IMG/VR virus record: IMGVR_UViG_3300007513_000026
Coordinates: 1-64,000 of that record
From: a virus
Direction: 5' to 3' (one strand)
DNA length: 64,000 nt
Notes under the pieces: generated by a model
What the model saw: only the letters and a program-made list of their open reading frames with translations
What the model was told of the DNA's origin: nothing
The model's database searches: none
Shown: in pieces, positions 11,185 to 39,058 of the stretch
Layout of the letters: every line of letters starts with the position of its first letter
Numbering within the stretch: position 1 is the first letter of the stretch
Program-made: the position numbers and the translations under genes

Positions 11185-12756
11185 CTACTCCGTTTGTATA
11201 ATTCCAAAATTAGTGGTAATCAGCGTTCCAGCACAGCTTCCAGCGTTCTGTAGAGCGGTGCGCGTGACCTTTACTGGATCCAAGATCCCAGCCTCGTGCA
11301 GGTCGGTAAGCTCTCCTTCTCTAAAGTCCCACCCGCTGGTCTCTGGAGCCTTCAAGACTGCGTTGATAATTAAATCGGGGGAGGCGCCAGCATTGAGGGC
11401 CATTTGACGAATGGGCTCTTGGCATGCGCTCTGGATTATAGTCCCTCCCAAGGCTTGCTCTCGACTCATCGTGGTGATCACCAGGGTGTTGGCTGCTCTT
11501 AACAGCGCACATCCTCCACCGATAATGATGCCTTCTTCTTGGGCAGAGCGCACAGCTTCCAGGGCATCTTCGATTCGATGCTTCTTCTCGGTCATCTCGA
11601 CTTCGGTGGCGCCTCCAACTTTGATGACGGCCACGCCAGACGCAAGACGAACGATGCGATCTTGAATCTTTTCGCAGTCAGTCATCGACTCGGTTTGTTC
11701 GATAAGAGCCTTGAGCGATTCGATGCGAGTGTCTATTTCCTCCATCTCGCAGCTTCCCCCTACAATGGTAGTGGTGCGCTTGGTGCTCTCGATAAAATCT
11801 GCAGTTCCCAGGTGTACCATCTTAACTTCGTTAAGTTTAATGCCGCTTTCTCGCGTGATAAACGTAGCTCCCACTGAGATAGATAGATCGCTAAGGATGT
11901 TTCGGCGCTCTTCTCCATAACGTGGAGCTTTAATTGCTGCAACTTTCATGGTGCCCCGTATTGCATTCATAATAAGTGCAGCCAGGGCTTGGCCATCTAC
12001 ATCCTCCGCAACAATTACCAGAGGGCGACCTTCGCGCGCCACCATCTCTAGAACAGGAAGAATCTGCTCCACAGTGGTAATCTTGTAGTCCGTCACCAGA
12101 ATAAGAGGATCGTCGTGATGCATAACAGCGCGCCGATCATCTGTGATAAAGGGTCCGGCACAATAGCCTGCGTCGAACTTAAAACCTTCTGTTACATCAA
12201 GCGACGTTTCAAGCGAACGAGACTCCTCAATCGTAATGGAGCCATCTTGACCAACTCGGTCTACTGCTAATGCAATCAACTTACCAATGGTAGGATCGTT
12301 GTTGGCTGAAATAGTCGCGATGTGCTCAATGTCTGCGATACTTTTCACCGGAGTGGACATGTCTTTGAGTTTGGTTGTTACCTCTCCAATAGCCAGCCCA
12401 ATGCCGCGTTGCAACTCAATCGGAGAAATACCGGAAGCAATTAGCTTTTGGGACTCTCGAAGGATTGCGCGGGCGATGACCGTGGAGGTTGTGGTACCAT
12501 CCCCAGCATCGCTATTCGTTTGGATGGCCGCTTGTTTAATAATCATTGCTGCAGCATTTTCAAACGGATCGTTTAGTGCAACAAAGTGTGCTACAGTTAC
12601 ACCATCTTTAGTGATAAAGGGCTTCTGTCCCTTTTCGTGTAGGAGGACATTGCGCCCTTTGGGACCTAGCGTTGAAGCTACGTTATCAGCTAAAACGTTT
12701 ACGCCCTCCATAATCTTTTTCTGTAAATCGTCGTGACTGTGATACTCTCTGCTCAT
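11185..12756 (-). CDS. groEL: GroEL-type group I chaperonin
   Basis: 523 residues, close to full bacterial length (about 548), lacking the GGM-repeat tail. ATP-site signatures are intact: STLGPKGRNV, DGVTVA, DAGDGTTT (the Asp87 site), EDALEAVRSAQEEG (the Asp398 site) and GGGCALLRAA. In the apical domain the stretch aligned with E. coli DRGYLSPYF reads DAGYCAGPF, so Ser201 and Tyr203, both near the GroES and substrate groove, appear changed. The phage also encodes its own GroES at 28463-28738, so the pair may have co-evolved. It probably folds capsid or tail proteins. A consensus sigma-70 promoter lies immediately upstream, with a very short leader and GAGG before the ATG. Confidence 0.95.
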   Translation of the reverse strand: MSREYHSHDDLQKKIMEGVNVLADNVASTLGPKGRNVLLHEKGQKPFITKDGVTVAHFVALNDPFENAAAMIIKQAAIQTNSDAGDGTTTSTVIARAILRESQKLIASGISPIELQRGIGLAIGEVTTKLKDMSTPVKSIADIEHIATISANNDPTIGKLIALAVDRVGQDGSITIEESRSLETSLDVTEGFKFDAGYCAGPFITDDRRAVMHHDDPLILVTDYKITTVEQILPVLEMVAREGRPLVIVAEDVDGQALAALIMNAIRGTMKVAAIKAPRYGEERRNILSDLSISVGATFITRESGIKLNEVKMVHLGTADFIESTKRTTTIVGGSCEMEEIDTRIESLKALIEQTESMTDCEKIQDRIVRLASGVAVIKVGGATEVEMTEKKHRIEDALEAVRSAQEEGIIIGGGCALLRAANTLVITTMSREQALGGTIIQSACQEPIRQMALNAGASPDLIINAVLKAPETSGWDFREGELTDLHEAGILDPVKVTRTALQNAGSCAGTLITTNFGIIQTE

Positions 12757-14546: not shown

Positions 14547-15173
14547 TCACACAATGACATCAGCGATGCCATATTCAATTGCTTCTTCTGCTGATAAATA
14601 GATATTAACTTTTTGTTCTAACATTTTTTTGAGTTGCTTTTTGGTCATTTTTGTTTCCTCGACCAAACGATCTATGTACATTTCTTGCAGGTCTTGGATG
14701 GCCTCCATCTCATTTACAAGGTTGTGGAGTGAGCCATGGTTGCCTGCTACCACCGAATGAAGCATGACGCGACAGTTGCGGCCAATCTGTCTTTTACCGT
14801 GAGTTCCCCCAGCCAACAGCAGAACGCCGGCTGACATAACCTTTCCCATTCCGATGGTTATAATATCGGTTTCCTTTTCGATTTGTTTCATTATATCATA
14901 CAGAGCAAACATATCATCGGCCGACCCTCCGTAGGTGGACAAATAGAACTCGATGTCGCGCCTCTTCTCTTTCTTAGTTGCCATCCGATTAAGCTCGTTC
15001 ATATATAAAAGCCCGTGAACCACCTCTGCTATCTTTTCCTCGGTGACATCTGTAAAAAGACCAACGACACGTAAGTCTGGCTCTGAGCTTTTTGGTAAAA
15101 TCATTATTTCCTTTTCCTCCACCTTCGCCTCTGCTAATGCAGTTTTAATGGCTTCTTTAATTTCCTTAATCAT
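14547..15173 (-). CDS. clpP: ClpP-like serine peptidase with Asn in place of Asp
   Basis: 208 residues with the ClpP/crotonase fold: STYGGSADDMFALYD, Ser114 in GKVMSAGV, and His139 in CRVMLHSVVAG. In active ClpP the acid residue comes just before F-x-SA-x-EA. Here the equivalent segment is KVNIYLSAEEA, so Asn190 stands where Asp is expected. An Asp-to-Asn change at this position is known in Listeria ClpP1, which depends on partner ClpP2. A second phage ClpP (21511-22116) has the Asp. Head maturation or host proteome control are possible roles. Its stop overlaps the region of the next gene's start. Confidence 0.85.
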   Translation of the reverse strand: MIKEIKEAIKTALAEAKVEEKEIMILPKSSEPDLRVVGLFTDVTEEKIAEVVHGLLYMNELNRMATKKEKRRDIEFYLSTYGGSADDMFALYDIMKQIEKETDIITIGMGKVMSAGVLLLAGGTHGKRQIGRNCRVMLHSVVAGNHGSLHNLVNEMEAIQDLQEMYIDRLVEETKMTKKQLKKMLEQKVNIYLSAEEAIEYGIADVIV

Positions 15174-15174
15174 T

Positions 15175-15576
15175 TCAATTCCCTGCTAAAAATTCTCGTG
15201 CAACATCCTTATTTCTTTCCAAATAAGTCATGGCACTCTCCCAATCGTTAAATTCCACAAGCTGATCGAAAAACGAGCCGTGCGAATCAATCATGGTTTT
15301 GATTGCTTTTTTCTTATACTGTGATACTTCATCATTAAAACTTCTGGTGAAAGCATCGATGTTTTGTTGGCTAGCTTTGTTTTCTTGCATGATGGCCAAT
15401 CGATAATATTTGGAATAGTGAAAGTTCTCTAATCCTTTTGTAATCACAAACAACCCCACCACTTGTGAAAGTTGAATGAGTTTTATACTCTTTCTGGTAG
15501 AACTAAAAAAATAGAACGTCTTGCAGGTCACATACCCAAACAAGAAAACAAGAAAATACAAAAGATATTGTGCCAA
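15175..15576 (-). CDS. Small membrane-anchored protein, unknown
   Basis: 133 residues from a TTG start with GAGGTGG 8-9 bases upstream. One hydrophobic segment (YLLYFLVFLFGYVTC) at the N-terminus is followed by a mainly helical soluble part ending WESAMTYLERNKDVAREFL. It is the first gene after the composite terminator/promoter at 15598-15661 and is separated from clpP by one base. No family recognised; proximity suggests a link to the clpP unit. Confidence 0.6.
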   Translation of the reverse strand: MAQYLLYFLVFLFGYVTCKTFYFFSSTRKSIKLIQLSQVVGLFVITKGLENFHYSKYYRLAIMQENKASQQNIDAFTRSFNDEVSQYKKKAIKTMIDSHGSFFDQLVEFNDWESAMTYLERNKDVAREFLAGN

Positions 15577-15597
15577 TTATCACCACCTCGGGTTGTC

Positions 15598-15632
15598 AAG
15601 AAAAACAACCACTAGAATTGCTCCCAGTGGTT
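15598..15632 (-). terminator. Intrinsic terminator overlapping a promoter start
   Basis: Coding strand: AACCACTGGGA, GCAA tetraloop, TTCTAGTGGTT, then GTTTTTCTT. This is an 11-bp stem with two G-T pairs, a GNRA loop and a T-tract. It ends the unit of the acidic 214-residue gene. The -10 box of the following promoter directly abuts its 5' arm. Confidence 0.8.
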
Positions 15633-15661
15633 ATTATAACGGTTCGTAAGATAAATGTCAA
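15633..15661 (-). promoter_or_regulatory. Sigma-70 promoter overlapping terminator
   Basis: TTGACA at 15656-15661, a 17-base spacer and TATAAT at 15633-15638. The predicted start, about 7 bases past the -10, falls near 15626 inside the 5' arm of the hairpin at 15598-15632. A transcript from here would lack most of that arm and escape the terminator. Confidence 0.85.
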
Positions 15662-15663
15662 TA

Positions 15664-16308
15664 CTATTTCTGAGTCAGTCTATTAAAAATTCTCTCAGTC
15701 AATTCATCAACCATCTGGGTCTTCCGGTTTTCCCGGCTCAATCGCTGCGCCACTCTGCGCGCGACTTCGTTCACCAGAGCATCAGTGTCTTCTTGGAGAG
15801 GGATCTCGGGGACAGGTTCGCCCTCGTCTGGGACTTCAGCCGCCATGCCTACATCAAGTTCACCTCCTCCTTCTAGCGGCTCTTCTACATCAAGTGCAAT
15901 ATCATCTACAACATCATCAACCGGTGCCTCTTCATCGCCACCTTCGACGCTAATTTGCACGCCTAGGGGTCCAAGCCCAGCAACCAATTCTTCAACGGCT
16001 GCAGCAATAACATCTTCGACTGCACTGGCCATTTCTGGCTCCAGAGTCGGAGGTGCTTCTTCCACGTCAACATCCATGTCAACGGGACCTTCATCGCCGG
16101 CAAGCTCATCTTCAAGATCATCAATCTCTTCGTCCTTGTCATGAACATCATCGTCCATATCGTGTAATTCGTGGCTCTTGGCCTCTTCCTCATCACGGTT
16201 ATAGTCCATGCCATATTCTTCAATTTTGGTCTCGCCAACGGATCCCATATCAGCCAGCTTCATAAAGCGGCGAATCTCTGTTTCTGTCAATAGTTTCTTA
16301 CGAGCCAT
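15664..16308 (-). CDS. Acidic virion-like protein, possibly scaffold-related
   Basis: 214 residues. Basic start (MARKKLLTETEIRRFMKLADM), then an extremely acidic, Asp/Glu/Val/Pro-rich middle (about 30-165) and a helical basic C-terminus (RRVAQRLSRENRKTQM ... TERIFNRLTQK). Both the 'RRFMKLA' opening and the acidic centre resemble virion or prohead-core proteins of T4-type marine phages and the gp22-like protein at 59766-60926. It is a single-gene unit with a putative late motif 35 bases upstream and a strong terminator right after its stop. Function inferred only from composition and promoter class. Confidence 0.55.
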   Translation of the reverse strand: MARKKLLTETEIRRFMKLADMGSVGETKIEEYGMDYNRDEEEAKSHELHDMDDDVHDKDEEIDDLEDELAGDEGPVDMDVDVEEAPPTLEPEMASAVEDVIAAAVEELVAGLGPLGVQISVEGGDEEAPVDDVVDDIALDVEEPLEGGGELDVGMAAEVPDEGEPVPEIPLQEDTDALVNEVARRVAQRLSRENRKTQMVDELTERIFNRLTQK

Positions 16309-16958: not shown

Positions 16959-18002
16959 TCACCACTTCCTATTCACGATATGTGTGTGTGCCTCAGATAG
17001 ACCCGACGAAGTTTGTGTTACAAACTGTGCTTTCGCGTGAAGTTCATCCAAGTTAGAGGCGCCAGAGTAACTAAATCCTGACCGAATGCCTCGCTCCAAG
17101 TCTTCAAGAATCAACCGCAGAGGTCCACGATAAGGTACCCGTGTGGCCACCCCCTCAAAGGAACTGTAGCGCCCGTGCCAATCGACTTGTGCTTCTTTGC
17201 TAGCCATCCCTCGGTAAGACTTCCATCGACTCCCATCGAAATCCTGAAAAATTTTACCGGGAGTTTCGTCGGTCCCTGAGAGTAACGACCCACACATCAC
17301 TGCATCTGCTCCGGCGGCTAAGGCTTTCACCATATCACCGGAGTTTTTAATGCCACCGTCTGCGACGATCTTTACATCTCGGTCGGTTTGAGCACAGTCC
17401 ATAATGGTCTGCAAACCTGGCATTCCGTGGCCCGTCTGAATACGAGTGGAACAAATAGATCCTCCACCAATATTGCAGCGGACACTGTCAGCACCCCAGT
17501 CGGATAGGTCGTTGAGAGCTTCCAACGTGGCTACATTACCAGCCATGATATGGAAGCGCTCCCCTAAGACTTTACGTAGCGCATACAAAGCTTGCTTCAT
17601 CATAACGTGGTGACCATGGGCCACATCCACGCAGAGAAAATCTACAAACTGTGCTCGAAGTGCTTGGGCCCTCTCTAGATAATCTCCAGTGATGCCCACA
17701 GCAGCGCCAGTGGTAATGAGGCTGTGGTTTCCATCGGGCATGCGTGCCTGTGATGTTCTTACCTGTCTCACTTGCTCTTCAATCGTATTGTAACGATGAA
17801 TGATGGCTGCTCCCCCTGCTTGGTTCATAGCCACCGCCATGGATGCCTCTGAAATAGTGTCCATGGGCGATGATAGAATCGGCAGTGAGAGCTTTAATCC
17901 ATTACCCAAATCGGAACCAACGTTAATATCGCCTCGCGAATTGATGGCCGAATATTGGGGGACTAAAAGCACATCATCATAAGATATGCATCTCTTGTCC
18001 AT
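16959..18002 (-). CDS. guaB: IMP dehydrogenase / GMP reductase family enzyme
   Basis: 347 residues forming the TIM-barrel core without the CBS regulatory domains. Visible motifs: [11 protein letters not shown] at the N-terminus, [17 protein letters not shown] (the catalytic Cys loop), [20 protein letters not shown] (phosphate binding), and [10 protein letters not shown] followed by [16 protein letters not shown] makes XMP from IMP with NAD+; GMP reductase runs the reverse branch with NADPH. The short length fits either, and sequence alone does not decide. As an auxiliary metabolic gene it would shift host purine pools towards guanine nucleotides for replication. Its ATG overlaps the upstream stop (TAATG). 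Confidence 0.85.
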
Positions 18003-20748: not shown

Positions 20749-20777
20749 AATATAACAAATTCTGTGCAGGGTGTCAA
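20749..20777 (-). promoter_or_regulatory. Sigma-70 promoter of dut operon
   Basis: TTGACA at 20772-20777, a 17-base spacer and TATATT at 20749-20754. It lies in the gap just after the J-domain gene stop and drives the packed set from the 87-residue gene to the region 4-like gene. Confidence 0.85.
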
Positions 20778-20783
20778 CCCTTT

Positions 20784-27546: not shown

Positions 27547-28448
27547 TCTTCGTCGCTTATCTCATCAATCAAAGTTTTAATATCCAGTCCCGCGCAATCA
27601 ATCTTGCGCTTGCTGCAATGATAATGACTCACGATACCAGCGTACTTGCCATACACCACATCTTGGATGTACTTTGTTTCTGTCTTGCCGAATTGACTAA
27701 GTGGTGTTTGAAACTCCACATTGGTGACGGCTTCAATAGCTTTCCATAAAGCTTTAGCTGCTTCTATCTGGATGGGATAGAACCCCAGGAAAGGATCCAG
27801 TTGGTTGCCGTGGACCCATGCACCTTCTACCATCGGGCGCTTACCATGGCCGTTTCTCTCATACCAGTCCTGGTACTTGGGGTAGTATGCGTTTGTCATC
27901 TCGACCCCCACCGACGCACGATTGACGCGGCTTGTTCCTGCATGCCAGGCGCCATGTTGCATGTCCATCGTCTGATAGATGGTACCATCGTTGTCAATCA
28001 TAAAGTGTACAGAGATACCGCGCTTGTTCAAAACGTCGTTGCAACGCCGAGAACTCAAGCACACGTCCCAGTGGTTTACGAAGAGGCGAATGTTGCGTTG
28101 GGGGCGGCCGCTGTAATCGTAGTAGTTACCTGCCTTTGCGGCTAGTCCGTTCTGTTCTGACCAGAGAACCACCTTGTCCCATTTAATAGGAATGAACGAG
28201 CTATTGTATACGAGGTAACTGGAGTATTGGATAGGGTAAGGTTTATGTTCATCGATGCTTTCTTGTCTCGATGTCCAAATGCGCCGGTATGTGGCTGGAC
28301 CGCAGAGACCATCGGCGGTTAGACCGTGCGCCTTCTGCCACTTCTTGATAGCCCTCACTAGCTTCTCATCAAAGTACCTTTCGCCAAACCAAGACGGCTC
28401 CCAGCCCAATTGCGTAGCCGACGCCTGGTTGTAAAAATCCTTATCCAT
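27543..28448 (-). CDS. Endolysin: N-acetylmuramoyl-L-alanine amidase
   Basis: 301 residues. Residues about 25-60 form a peptidoglycan-binding type 1 domain (LVRAIKKWQKAHGLTADGLCG, then YRRIW). Residues 120-285 form an Amidase_2 domain: LFVNHWDVC with a zinc His, GISVHFMIDNDGTIYQTMD, HGAWHAGTSRVNRASVGVE with a further His, and VSHYHCSKRKIDCAG near the C-terminus. It cleaves the amide between MurNAc and the stem peptide to lyse the host. There is no signal peptide, so it needs a holin, none of which is evident in this window. The N-terminal placement of the binding domain is typical of Gram-negative phage lysins. Confidence 0.85.
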   Translation of the reverse strand: MDKDFYNQASATQLGWEPSWFGERYFDEKLVRAIKKWQKAHGLTADGLCGPATYRRIWTSRQESIDEHKPYPIQYSSYLVYNSSFIPIKWDKVVLWSEQNGLAAKAGNYYDYSGRPQRNIRLFVNHWDVCLSSRRCNDVLNKRGISVHFMIDNDGTIYQTMDMQHGAWHAGTSRVNRASVGVEMTNAYYPKYQDWYERNGHGKRPMVEGAWVHGNQLDPFLGFYPIQIEAAKALWKAIEAVTNVEFQTPLSQFGKTETKYIQDVVYGKYAGIVSHYHCSKRKIDCAGLDIKTLIDEISDEE

Positions 28449-32349: not shown

Positions 32350-32378
32350 ATTATAACAGCTTAACGATAAACTGTCAA
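32350..32378 (-). promoter_or_regulatory. Sigma-70 promoter of helicase operon
   Basis: TTGACA at 32373-32378, a 17-base spacer and TATAAT at 32350-32355. The TGA stop codon of the exonuclease gene is inside the -35 box. The start gives a leader of about 15 bases with GAGGG before the ATG. Confidence 0.85.
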
Positions 32379-33349
32379 TCTTTATCGCCTGTGTTGCAGT
32401 TGTAGGTGATGCGATTTAAATTAGTTCGCAGGTCTTCCCAATTAAGTTCCCCAAACCCATCTTCTCTCATCATCCGTATAACTTCAGTTTTATTAAACGT
32501 GCACTCGAAGCCCTCCACTGCCTCTTTAACCGTCATTTTAGATTGAAAAGACATCTGAGGAGCGTACAATTGCATCATGCTATAATTATGTTCGATGACT
32601 TCCTTTCCCTCCAGAATATTAGAAAAGAATTTGAGTTTACTGTTTGTTTTCTCACAAAAATCTATAACCTCTTGAATTGTATAAGATTTCTCAGCCGACA
32701 AAAAATTAAGTCTTTTTGCTACCGTCGCAAACCCGGCGCCCTTGATACCTGGGAGATTATCTGAAGAGTCTCCAATGATCGCACGGGCCAATGCCATGTT
32801 GGTTGGGTGTACGCCGGTGCGCTCAACAATGCGACTTTTGTTTAACAGTTCGTTCTGGGTAGGCCGAAGCAACACTGTCTCTTCATCGCATAGTTGCATG
32901 AAATCCTTATCATTAGATACAATAACCTTTTGCCATCCCTTGTAGTAATCCATCTGGGTCACATAAGCAATCACATCATCAGCTTCGATCTCTGGAAGGA
33001 TTGTTTGCACAATGGGCATCTCATTCAGATACTCCATGATGCGCGTTTGTTGCCACATTTTATTTTTAAGCTCTTCATCCTCTGTCAAGTTATGGAAAGC
33101 CCGATTCAAACGCAAAGGTTTGCGTCCTGCTTTATAATTCTTGTCCATAGTTTTGCGCTTCTGGGAACCATTCGGCCCATCCCAACAAATAATAATCTCG
33201 TCAGGTTTGGTTTCTCGCACAAGCTTCTGAAGGATTTTAATGAATCCTTTTAAACCTCCGATGGGCTGACCATTTGAGGACAAACTCGGATCTACAATGT
33301 AAGCTCGTAGATAGGCGTTCAGCGCATCAATAATCAGTACTCTTTTCAT
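32375..33349 (-). CDS. 5'-3' exonuclease (FEN / PolA N-terminal type)
   Basis: 324 residues; the ATG at 33349 with AGGAG upstream is preferred to one further upstream. FEN-family metal ligands are visible: DALNAYLRAY, EADDVIAYV, VSNDKDFMQL, and GDSSDNLPGIKGAG with the helix-hairpin-helix KGAGFATVAKRL. It matches the T4 RNase H/T5 exonuclease/Pol I 5'-nuclease class that removes RNA primers and flaps. The phage family A polymerase at 39055-40230 lacks this domain, so the two may supply the functions of a whole Pol I. Its stop overlaps the helicase promoter. Confidence 0.9.
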   Translation of the reverse strand: MKRVLIIDALNAYLRAYIVDPSLSSNGQPIGGLKGFIKILQKLVRETKPDEIIICWDGPNGSQKRKTMDKNYKAGRKPLRLNRAFHNLTEDEELKNKMWQQTRIMEYLNEMPIVQTILPEIEADDVIAYVTQMDYYKGWQKVIVSNDKDFMQLCDEETVLLRPTQNELLNKSRIVERTGVHPTNMALARAIIGDSSDNLPGIKGAGFATVAKRLNFLSAEKSYTIQEVIDFCEKTNSKLKFFSNILEGKEVIEHNYSMMQLYAPQMSFQSKMTVKEAVEGFECTFNKTEVIRMMREDGFGELNWEDLRTNLNRITYNCNTGDKD

Positions 33350-33515
33350 TTTTCTCTCCTGTGTCGTCACAGATTATGTTACCGCTCTCGTCAAGCGGCG
33401 GAAATTCTTCGTGTCCGGTATCACTTGGACACCAGCAGTTGGGTCCGCCAGGACATTGATTGTTGAGGGGATTAAGCCCCATCTCACATGCCCAAAGCAA
33501 CACCCATATAATCAC
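33327..33515 (-). CDS. Small Cys-rich protein translated from composite element
   Basis: 62 residues from a GTG at 33515. The GGAGG ribosome site is the 3' arm of the terminator hairpin at 33516-33555, with its T-tract as the 5-base spacer. The N-terminus (MIIWVLLWACEMG) is hydrophobic and may anchor to the membrane or be a short lipoprotein-like leader. The rest has Cys, Pro, Gly, Asp and Glu (NQCPGGPNCWCPSD). It overlaps the exonuclease start by 23 bases and may mainly couple translation to that gene. No family recognised. Confidence 0.5.
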   Translation of the reverse strand: MIIWVLLWACEMGLNPLNNQCPGGPNCWCPSDTGHEEFPPLDESGNIICDDTGEKNEKSTDY

Positions 33516-33555
33516 AAAAACCTCCCGATCAGTTTTATTATAACCAATCGGGAGG
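33516..33555 (-). terminator. Terminator with promoter -10 in its loop and SD in its arm
   Basis: Coding strand: a 14-bp stem from CCTCCCGATTGGTT paired with AACTGATCGGGAGG, a 7-base loop ATAATAA, then TTTTT. It would end transcripts of uvsX and the His-rich gene. The loop carries most of the TATAAT of the promoter at 33537-33565. The 3' arm provides GGAGG for the GTG at 33515. Confidence 0.85.
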
Positions 33556-33565
33556 CTTAAGTCAA
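33537..33565 (-). promoter_or_regulatory. Sigma-70 promoter embedded in terminator hairpin
   Basis: TTGACT at 33560-33565, a 17-base spacer and TATAAT at 33537-33542. The predicted start near 33530 falls at the beginning of the 3' arm, so its RNA cannot form the hairpin and has a free GGAGG. Confidence 0.8.
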
Positions 33566-38191: not shown

Positions 38192-38220
38192 ATTATATTA
38201 CTCTTGCTCTACCATGTCAA
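38192..38220 (-). promoter_or_regulatory. Sigma-70 promoter of SSB gene
   Basis: TTGACA at 38215-38220, a 17-base spacer and TATAAT at 38192-38197. The spacer holds the last codons and TAA stop of the upstream gene. Confidence 0.85.
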
Positions 38221-39058
38221 GAGTTTTTTGTACTACGTTAGTGCGGGCAACGCAGAACCCAAAATCGGCGCCAGTCTCAGTTTCGTAAATTGCATACGAA
38301 ACCTTACGAAAGGCATTGCGGGGCTTTTCCTTCAGCATATGAACCAATTTCCTATGCAAGCTCCCATCTTTCTCTAACTTTTCCTTATTCATACATAAAT
38401 AATAACATACCTCTCTGTCGATGTCAAGGTCAAAAAACCATTTTTCTTCAAGATTCTTCATGTTCAAAACACCGTAGGTTGTAATACGACAAATCTCTGC
38501 CGGCTTGGCCAAAACGCCAATCTCAGGCTCATTGTGCGCAAAGTAATTCATGTAGTGTACAGCCGACTGAATCATTCCATTGAGTGAACTGTAGTATTCC
38601 TTGATAGGTACGTTCTGCAAAATGGTTTCCAGGTTAAGGTTTGAAATCAAGGTCACAGAATTAAACAGTCCCGACCTCGCATATTCCTGGAGCACACCGA
38701 AGGTGGCATTCTCCATGAGCTTCGGGATTCCCGAGAGCAGATCCACATCTGGCTTGATGTAAAACAAATCAATCTTCTTATCCTTAAGCTGCTCCAGAAT
38801 CCCCAACGCATAGTTAGAACTGTACGATGCCCCCACCACAAAAAACTGAATGTGATCGGCTGCGTCTTTAAAGAACTTTCGGACATCTGGAATGTTTTCT
38901 TCGTATTCCTCGGGCGTCTGGTACTTCTTTAATTTGAACTTATACTTAGACGTTCGTTTAACGCTATTATTCAAACAAAAAACACTATACTGTGGGAGTG
39001 AGGAAAACTTTTCCGCAATCCTGCTACCAGAATTTCCCAGCCCAATAATAGAGATCAT
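38198..39058 (-). CDS. Putative FtsZ/tubulin-like protein with altered GTP loops
   Basis: 286 residues. The N-terminus ISIIGLGNSGSRIAEKF parallels the FtsZ opening (IKVIGVGGAGNNAV). Further on, HIQFFVVGASYSSNYALGILEQLKDKKIDLFYIKPD lies where FtsZ has the VF-x-x-AG-MGGGTGTG signature and the following KPF strand. ATFGVLQEYARSG, TLISNLNLETIL and SALVHYM-like helix QSAVHYMNYF track the FtsZ order L-x-x-x-x-D, IPND-x-L and N-terminal core helix H7. The GGGTGTG loop itself is missing (GASYSSN), so GTP binding is doubtful. The assignment rests on order of motifs read by eye. Other dinucleotide-binding folds are possible. It overlaps the polymerase gene by 4 bases. Confidence 0.45.
   Translation of the reverse strand: MISIIGLGNSGSRIAEKFSSLPQYSVFCLNNSVKRTSKYKFKLKKYQTPEEYEENIPDVRKFFKDAADHIQFFVVGASYSSNYALGILEQLKDKKIDLFYIKPDVDLLSGIPKLMENATFGVLQEYARSGLFNSVTLISNLNLETILQNVPIKEYYSSLNGMIQSAVHYMNYFAHNEPEIGVLAKPAEICRITTYGVLNMKNLEEKWFFDLDIDREVCYYLCMNKEKLEKDGSLHRKLVHMLKEKPRNAFRKVSYAIYETETGADFGFCVARTNVVQKTLDMVEQE

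Follow-up and report, generated by a model that had tools for sequence, protein, structure and literature searches.

The window analysed here, a stretch of 64,000 nucleotides (positions 1 to 64,000 of the IMG/VR record IMGVR_UViG_3300007513_000026), belongs to a virus contig of 72,530 bases. The protein families found comprise a tail sheath, UvsX, DnaB, Pol III alpha, GroEL and a Clp-type head protease, thus identifying a tailed phage with a contractile tail. The phage-encoded GroEL gene (11185-12756) is located near the head protease gene and a perfect promoter lies at 12806-12778, while positions 16959-18002 hold what we take, from its sequence, to be an IMP dehydrogenase/GMP reductase-like gene. 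No near DNA relatives of the window were recovered from a phage collection; its relatives constitute a large family of mostly marine phages, an uncultured group. At 15.6 kb, a promoter and a terminator overlap between two genes, and the arrangement, termed type A, comprises the following elements.

15664-16308, minus strand: upstream gene encoding an acidic protein of 214 residues without family match, the last gene of the upstream transcription unit
15633-15661, minus strand: sigma-70-type promoter, TTGACA-17-TATAAT (-35 box 15661-15656, -10 box 15638-15633)
15626, minus strand: predicted RNA start, expected from promoter spacing at the seventh base past the -10 box, inside the 5' arm of the hairpin
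15607-15632, minus strand: terminator hairpin with an 11-bp stem and a GCAA loop, directly abutting the -10 box
15598-15606, minus strand: T tract GTTTTTCTT, T-rich in nearly all relatives
15175-15589, minus strand: Shine-Dalgarno GAGGTGG (15589-15583), TTG start codon (15576) and downstream gene p133
14547-15173, minus strand: Clp-type head maturation protease-like gene (PHROG match, 1.8e-16), next in the downstream unit

The overlap is real, and a preliminary description, in which a consensus promoter abuts an 11-bp GCAA-loop terminator, was right in sequence and coordinates; that the unit lies on the minus strand had not been stated. The stop codon of the upstream gene is located 2 nt 5' of the -35 box, and the promoter displays a G at -14 and a T at -13, as in more than 90% of the relatives. 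The promoters of this study are called sigma-70-type from their match to the consensus. The stem consists of AACCACTGGGA (15632-15622) paired with TTCTAGTGGTT (15617-15607), including two G-U pairs, and three extra pairs join the -10 box (15635-15633) to the T tract (15606-15604). Besides 15626, RNA starts may be predicted at 15628 (A) and 15625 (G). In the window the T tract GTTTTTCTT is short and interrupted, which counts against termination. The product of p133 comprises 133 residues with a hydrophobic N-terminus and has no family match. An Rfam covariance-model search of positions 15400-15800 revealed no match at E values up to 1.

Folding of the complete type A hairpin of the window gave -17.6 kcal/mol (z = -5.1 against shuffled sequences). 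RNA beginning at 15626 is no more structured than its shuffles (z = -0.2), and the native stem is reduced to 5 pairs and -2.2 kcal/mol. Type A relatives behave similarly in folding, with a median of -16.2 for the full hairpin and of -4.0 or -3.1 from the start site. When the start was placed at the seventh base past the -10 box, the local hairpin was weaker than -8 kcal/mol in 76% of type A sites, a proportion that rises to 89% for a start at the eighth base; in the other 24% and 11% of sites, respectively, the hairpin left in the local RNA reaches -8 kcal/mol or better. The strong exceptions are clustered, comprising nine of the 12 members of one clade (L014, L106, L108, L110, L116, L122, L124, L127 and L135) plus L120, and their distribution requires as few as 4 changes, compared with 9.6 when labels are shuffled. 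In this clade the first bases of the hairpin fall at or close around the start, and the local RNA retains the whole GC core. The earlier proposal that only RNA from upstream can fold the terminator therefore holds in part: the 5' arm begins upstream of the expected start and structure is lost from 15626, but 11-24% of type A sites are exceptions. In the window, the 3' arm freed in the local RNA can pair with sequence past the T tract (GGTTGT..ACAACC, 15613-15591, minus strand), possibly as an anti-structure, although this pairing is not evident in the relatives read.

Homologous loci were gathered by searches with the two downstream genes, yielding 131 viral loci that share the same gene order, with a homologue of the upstream gene in 130 and p133 in all 131. 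Loci from a blind pattern scan were added, giving 131 distinct junction sequences. Every one of these displays TTGACA-like and TATAAT-like hexamers 16-18 bases apart before the gene; the spacer measures 17 bases in 130 junctions, and 86 promoters have no mismatch at all. A stem followed by a T tract is likewise present at all 131 junctions, starting -5 to +7 nt from the end of the -10 box (mostly -3 to +2), and a single weak hairpin was observed (L136). The p133 proteins of these relatives share only ~30-55% identity. Across 65 dereplicated type A sites, mean identity reaches 96% for the -35 box and 94% for the -10 box, compared with 36% for the first 14 spacer bases and 26%, which is random, for the loop, while the outer arm AACCAC and the inner 5' arm display 59% and 29%, respectively. 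Pairing is nevertheless preserved: 7.4 of 8 core positions are paired across 70 distinct cores, whereas swapping arms between sites leaves 4.3 of 8 (maximum 4.9). Type A sites therefore display a stable GC-containing stem with compensatory changes and a T tract on the same strand, the sequence features of an intrinsic terminator.

A test for hairpin plus T tract was passed by 119 of 121 promoters of the p133 junction, but none of the 174 other promoters in these loci passed it; random positions passed in 1.1% of cases. A blind scan of all viral contigs, independent of gene content and using the pattern TATAATAACCAC-N4..22-GTGGTTATT, gave matches of which 80 were examined, and 68 of these fell at the p133 junction; among the remaining 12, a -35 box within one mismatch accompanies only two, one of which is the junction itself in truncated form (L206). 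Outside the p133 junction the pattern was dismissed as chance palindromes, nearly all of which lack a -35 box. The idea that the overlap arose by chance in a compact genome draws on the shortness of the intergenic regions, but it is refuted by this comparison, since promoter and hairpin recur at 131 of 131 junctions with saturated blocks between them against a background of 1.1%, and its probability is close to nil. The comparison bears out the earlier suggestion of selection rather than chance, and together with the conserved hexamers, the randomized spacer and loop and the covarying stem it argues strongly that selection has maintained the arrangement among very diverged relatives.

A second overlap, located at 33516-33565, is equally real. 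Its geometry, termed type B, is unlike that of type A, as the -10 box is positioned in the loop.

33537-33565, minus strand: promoter of the second unit, TTGACT-17-TATAAT
33520-33556, minus strand: hairpin with its 5' arm in the promoter spacer and the -10 box in the loop
33513-33520, minus strand: T tract, which is also the spacer from Shine-Dalgarno to start codon, followed by a GTG start
33515-33327, minus strand: open reading frame for 62 amino acids with a GTG start, whose Shine-Dalgarno is the 3' arm of the hairpin
32375-33370, minus strand: 5'-3' exonuclease gene, which in some relatives starts directly behind the unit

The hairpin of the window folds at -23 to -24.6 kcal/mol (z = -7.3). 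Its 3' arm, GATCGGGAGG, contains the Shine-Dalgarno, and the sequence continues as GATCGGGAGG-TTTTT-GTG; that the 3' arm is a ribosome-binding site had escaped the preliminary description. The type B element was identified in 51 of 74 distinct regions upstream of exonuclease relatives, one or two being marginal, a fraction that is somewhat inflated, as part of the set was fetched with the type B pattern; among 58 unselected upstream regions, looked at first, 14 carried the element within 350 nt. The Shine-Dalgarno lies inside the 3' arm in 49 of these 51 sites, and 45 have a start codon no more than 16 nt further on. The distance to the exonuclease gene varies, the element residing directly at the exonuclease start in some loci (e.g. 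L363, L380 and L534). The 5' arm precedes the -10 box entirely or nearly so. In the same genomes, at least four T among the first five bases were found in only 4% of ordinary GGAGG-to-ATG spacers, suggesting that the type B T tract is more than a spacer and arguing for a role in termination. The two cases had been described as independent instances of one design logic, a view that is supported, and much more strongly by the relatives than by this pair of sites: both are conserved in relatives, with differing geometries.

A scan with the pattern CCTCC..TATAAT..GGAGG.TTT identified 43 sequence groups, 19 of which display a -35 box within one mismatch at exactly 17 bases (chance ~0.5% each), most of them in the lineage of the window. 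The most populous type B group, ggCTCCTCC..TATAAT..GGAGG, with 24 loci mainly from isolate-genome records, has only 5 pairs and no -35 box and was rejected as chance. Type B stems of 12 bp were observed in L409, L414 and L379, contigs whose similarity to the window's proteins is nil or nearly nil. When bacterial genomes were scanned with the geometry held fixed, a few strong cases emerged, for example in two Megasphaera genomes with ~20 pairs and a T tract. The design has thus probably arisen more than once. In the bacterial sequences L487 and L488 (Megasphaera), L482, L494 and L475, a -10 box occupies the loop of a ~20-bp hairpin, the 3' arm of which serves the next gene as its Shine-Dalgarno; those that lack a T tract would, as read from sequence, hide the ribosome-binding site from translation only.

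The 72,530-base record contains 10 promoters within one mismatch of TTGACA-17-TATAAT, all on the coding strand and none on the other. The preliminary description had proposed a scan for promoters in or near terminators in this phage and its relatives, and such a census, covering 12 long contigs (~0.87 Mb) with strict terminators and near-consensus promoters of up to one mismatch, found the start inside a terminator hairpin in 14 cases and elsewhere within 260 nt in 5; the contigs were chosen for carrying one of the two genes, so the counts reveal the dominance of starts inside terminators here, not their frequency in phages at large. Thirteen of the 14 nested starts belong to the p133 junction or to the type B unit, and one (G008, 61.6 kb) looks like chance. 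Three further clean terminators, on the minus strand at 62432-62407, 57219-57202 and 49072-49051, have long T tracts and enclose no near-consensus promoter. At 38192-38224 and 20768-20781, the -35 box of a minus-strand promoter falls within a small palindrome that an A tract precedes, and the plus strand across them reads as a weak terminator; the A tracts could be those of UP elements or stops for antisense RNA. One relative (contig G009, locus L320) contains three near-identical minus-strand promoters, TTGACTTNNCCC...TGGTATAATGGT...ATA(C)CAAGTAAGGAGA, at 27772, 32485 and 33222, before different genes and with a small palindrome around the -10 box, forming a repeated regulatory cassette.

Several known systems share parts of this organization. 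In IS10 and IS50, RNA entering from outside folds a hairpin that is absent from the element's own RNA, which protects the element from outside transcription. These hairpins differ from the present units in residing at transposase genes at the element ends and in blocking translation, and no overlap of promoter and terminator is known there. The pR'/tR' region of phage lambda has an intrinsic terminator closely behind a promoter. The same proximity is displayed by leader attenuators such as E. coli greA/GraL, where short terminated RNAs are made (PMC6829880). In leader attenuators, however, the local RNA holds the whole terminator, while in the nested units the 5' arm mostly precedes the start. 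An ordinary boundary, with the terminator followed by a promoter, likewise separates transcription units, but in the nested unit the promoter comes first, and the terminator behind it has bases in common with the -10 box.

The closest precedent is that of the phage T4 late genes e, soc, 49 and I-TevI, together with mobE of phage Aeh1, where a late promoter is located inside a hairpin by which early RNA conceals its ribosome-binding site (PMC3014915, PMC2988022). In common with T4, the promoter lies in the 5' strand and upstream RNA folds a hairpin that local RNA does not, which applies fully to type B and to most type A sites; type B also hides the Shine-Dalgarno in its 3' arm. At 15.6 kb neither the Shine-Dalgarno nor the start codon is in the stem, and with its Shine-Dalgarno (15589-15583) outside, type A works like the T4 type without being a member. 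In contrast with T4, where a gp55 late promoter is used and translation is what is blocked, the promoters described here match the sigma-70 consensus and not that of a late promoter for a phage sigma factor, and the hairpin is followed by the T tract of an intrinsic terminator; lineage and genes are unrelated. A literature search revealed no phage promoter reported to lie embedded in an intrinsic terminator, which is weak evidence of novelty, as most subscription papers lay outside the search.

From the anatomy, conservation, folding and covariation observed, we infer how the RNA behaves. Both sites are proposed to be operon-boundary elements, each made of a strong sigma-70-type promoter nested within an intrinsic terminator, such that the downstream unit is expressed only from its own promoter, a reading to which we assign a probability of about 0.7. 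Polymerase arriving from the upstream genes would transcribe the entire hairpin and T tract and terminate. Polymerase starting at the nested promoter would begin within the 5' arm at type A sites and in the loop at type B sites, and its RNA, predicted by folding to be without all or most of the 5' arm, would run on into the next genes. At type B sites, where the 3' arm is the Shine-Dalgarno, any read-through RNA should be poorly translated while the local RNA would be open to ribosomes, by analogy with T4 gene e. The net result would be a downstream unit served by its own promoter alone.

The main alternative to this boundary function concerns what the local RNA does. Were the hairpin a promoter-proximal attenuator, RNA from the nested promoter would fold it and end after ~30 nt unless relieved by a phage factor, similar to lambda Q, or by a condition. 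The greA leader demonstrates that regulation can come from a terminator placed just past a promoter (PMC6829880). One clade has the whole GC core 3' of the expected start, followed by a good T tract (L106, L116); the local RNA could there fold the stem and stop, which makes attenuation possible for this clade. The whole terminator is downstream of the start neither at the window site nor in type B, and local RNAs of 76-89% of type A sites keep just a weak remnant, while the type B 5' arm, lying (almost) wholly upstream of the -10 box, cannot be in the local RNA, which makes attenuation in general quite improbable. A repressor operator formed by the inverted repeat beside the -10 box might account for the better conservation of the outer arm (59% identity, compared with 29% for the inner arm), but the arms change in a compensatory way through all pair types, the T tract is found on one side only, and the type B arms are unrelated and differently placed; we regard an operator as very improbable indeed.

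Other proposals accept termination and ask why promoter and terminator overlap. Selection for compactness, put forward in the preliminary description, fails by length arithmetic: promoter plus terminator occupy ~85 nt in either order, and since a terminator followed by a promoter would be no longer, compactness is unconvincing as the reason for the order. A terminated polymerase might instead stay on the DNA and restart at the promoter lying under the terminator. Post-termination E. coli RNA polymerase does remain on DNA and restart at nearby promoters (PMC6978380, PMC6978322), and zero distance might favour restart; such recycling works over ~1000 bp (PMC11347151), however, so the overlap is not needed for it, and we consider this explanation improbable to a high degree. 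Less easily set aside, though still unlikely, is an occlusion switch, in which upstream polymerases cross and occlude the promoter before stopping and the downstream unit comes on when the upstream one is silent, providing timing without a regulator. The promoter precedes the terminator at all type A sites, and the reverse order, though no longer, is rare (the terminator is upstream of the promoter in 3 cases and straddles it in 121, in loci fetched around both sites); since no other order puts the promoter in the path of upstream traffic, this arrangement would make such a switch. Occlusion is compatible with the nested terminator and predicts that upstream genes would be expressed earlier than downstream ones.

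The terminator-nested promoter joins two textbook parts, an intrinsic terminator and a T4-style promoter in a hairpin, in an element that is strictly kept in a large uncultured group. Nested units of this kind will be missed by annotation in which promoters and terminators are handled as separate blocks; they would also be useful as insulated expression parts. A bolder and doubtful extension is that promoters nested in terminators form a general, hitherto undescribed class of boundary element, a regulator-free switch in the phage lineage with type B also serving unrelated phages and some Firmicutes; upstream traffic would then occlude the promoter and be both terminated and blocked from translation, the next unit turning on only once the upstream one is silent. 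For this phage, which apparently uses host-type promoters, the rule suggested by these observations is that a start site placed inside a terminator would separate neighbouring units without a regulator.
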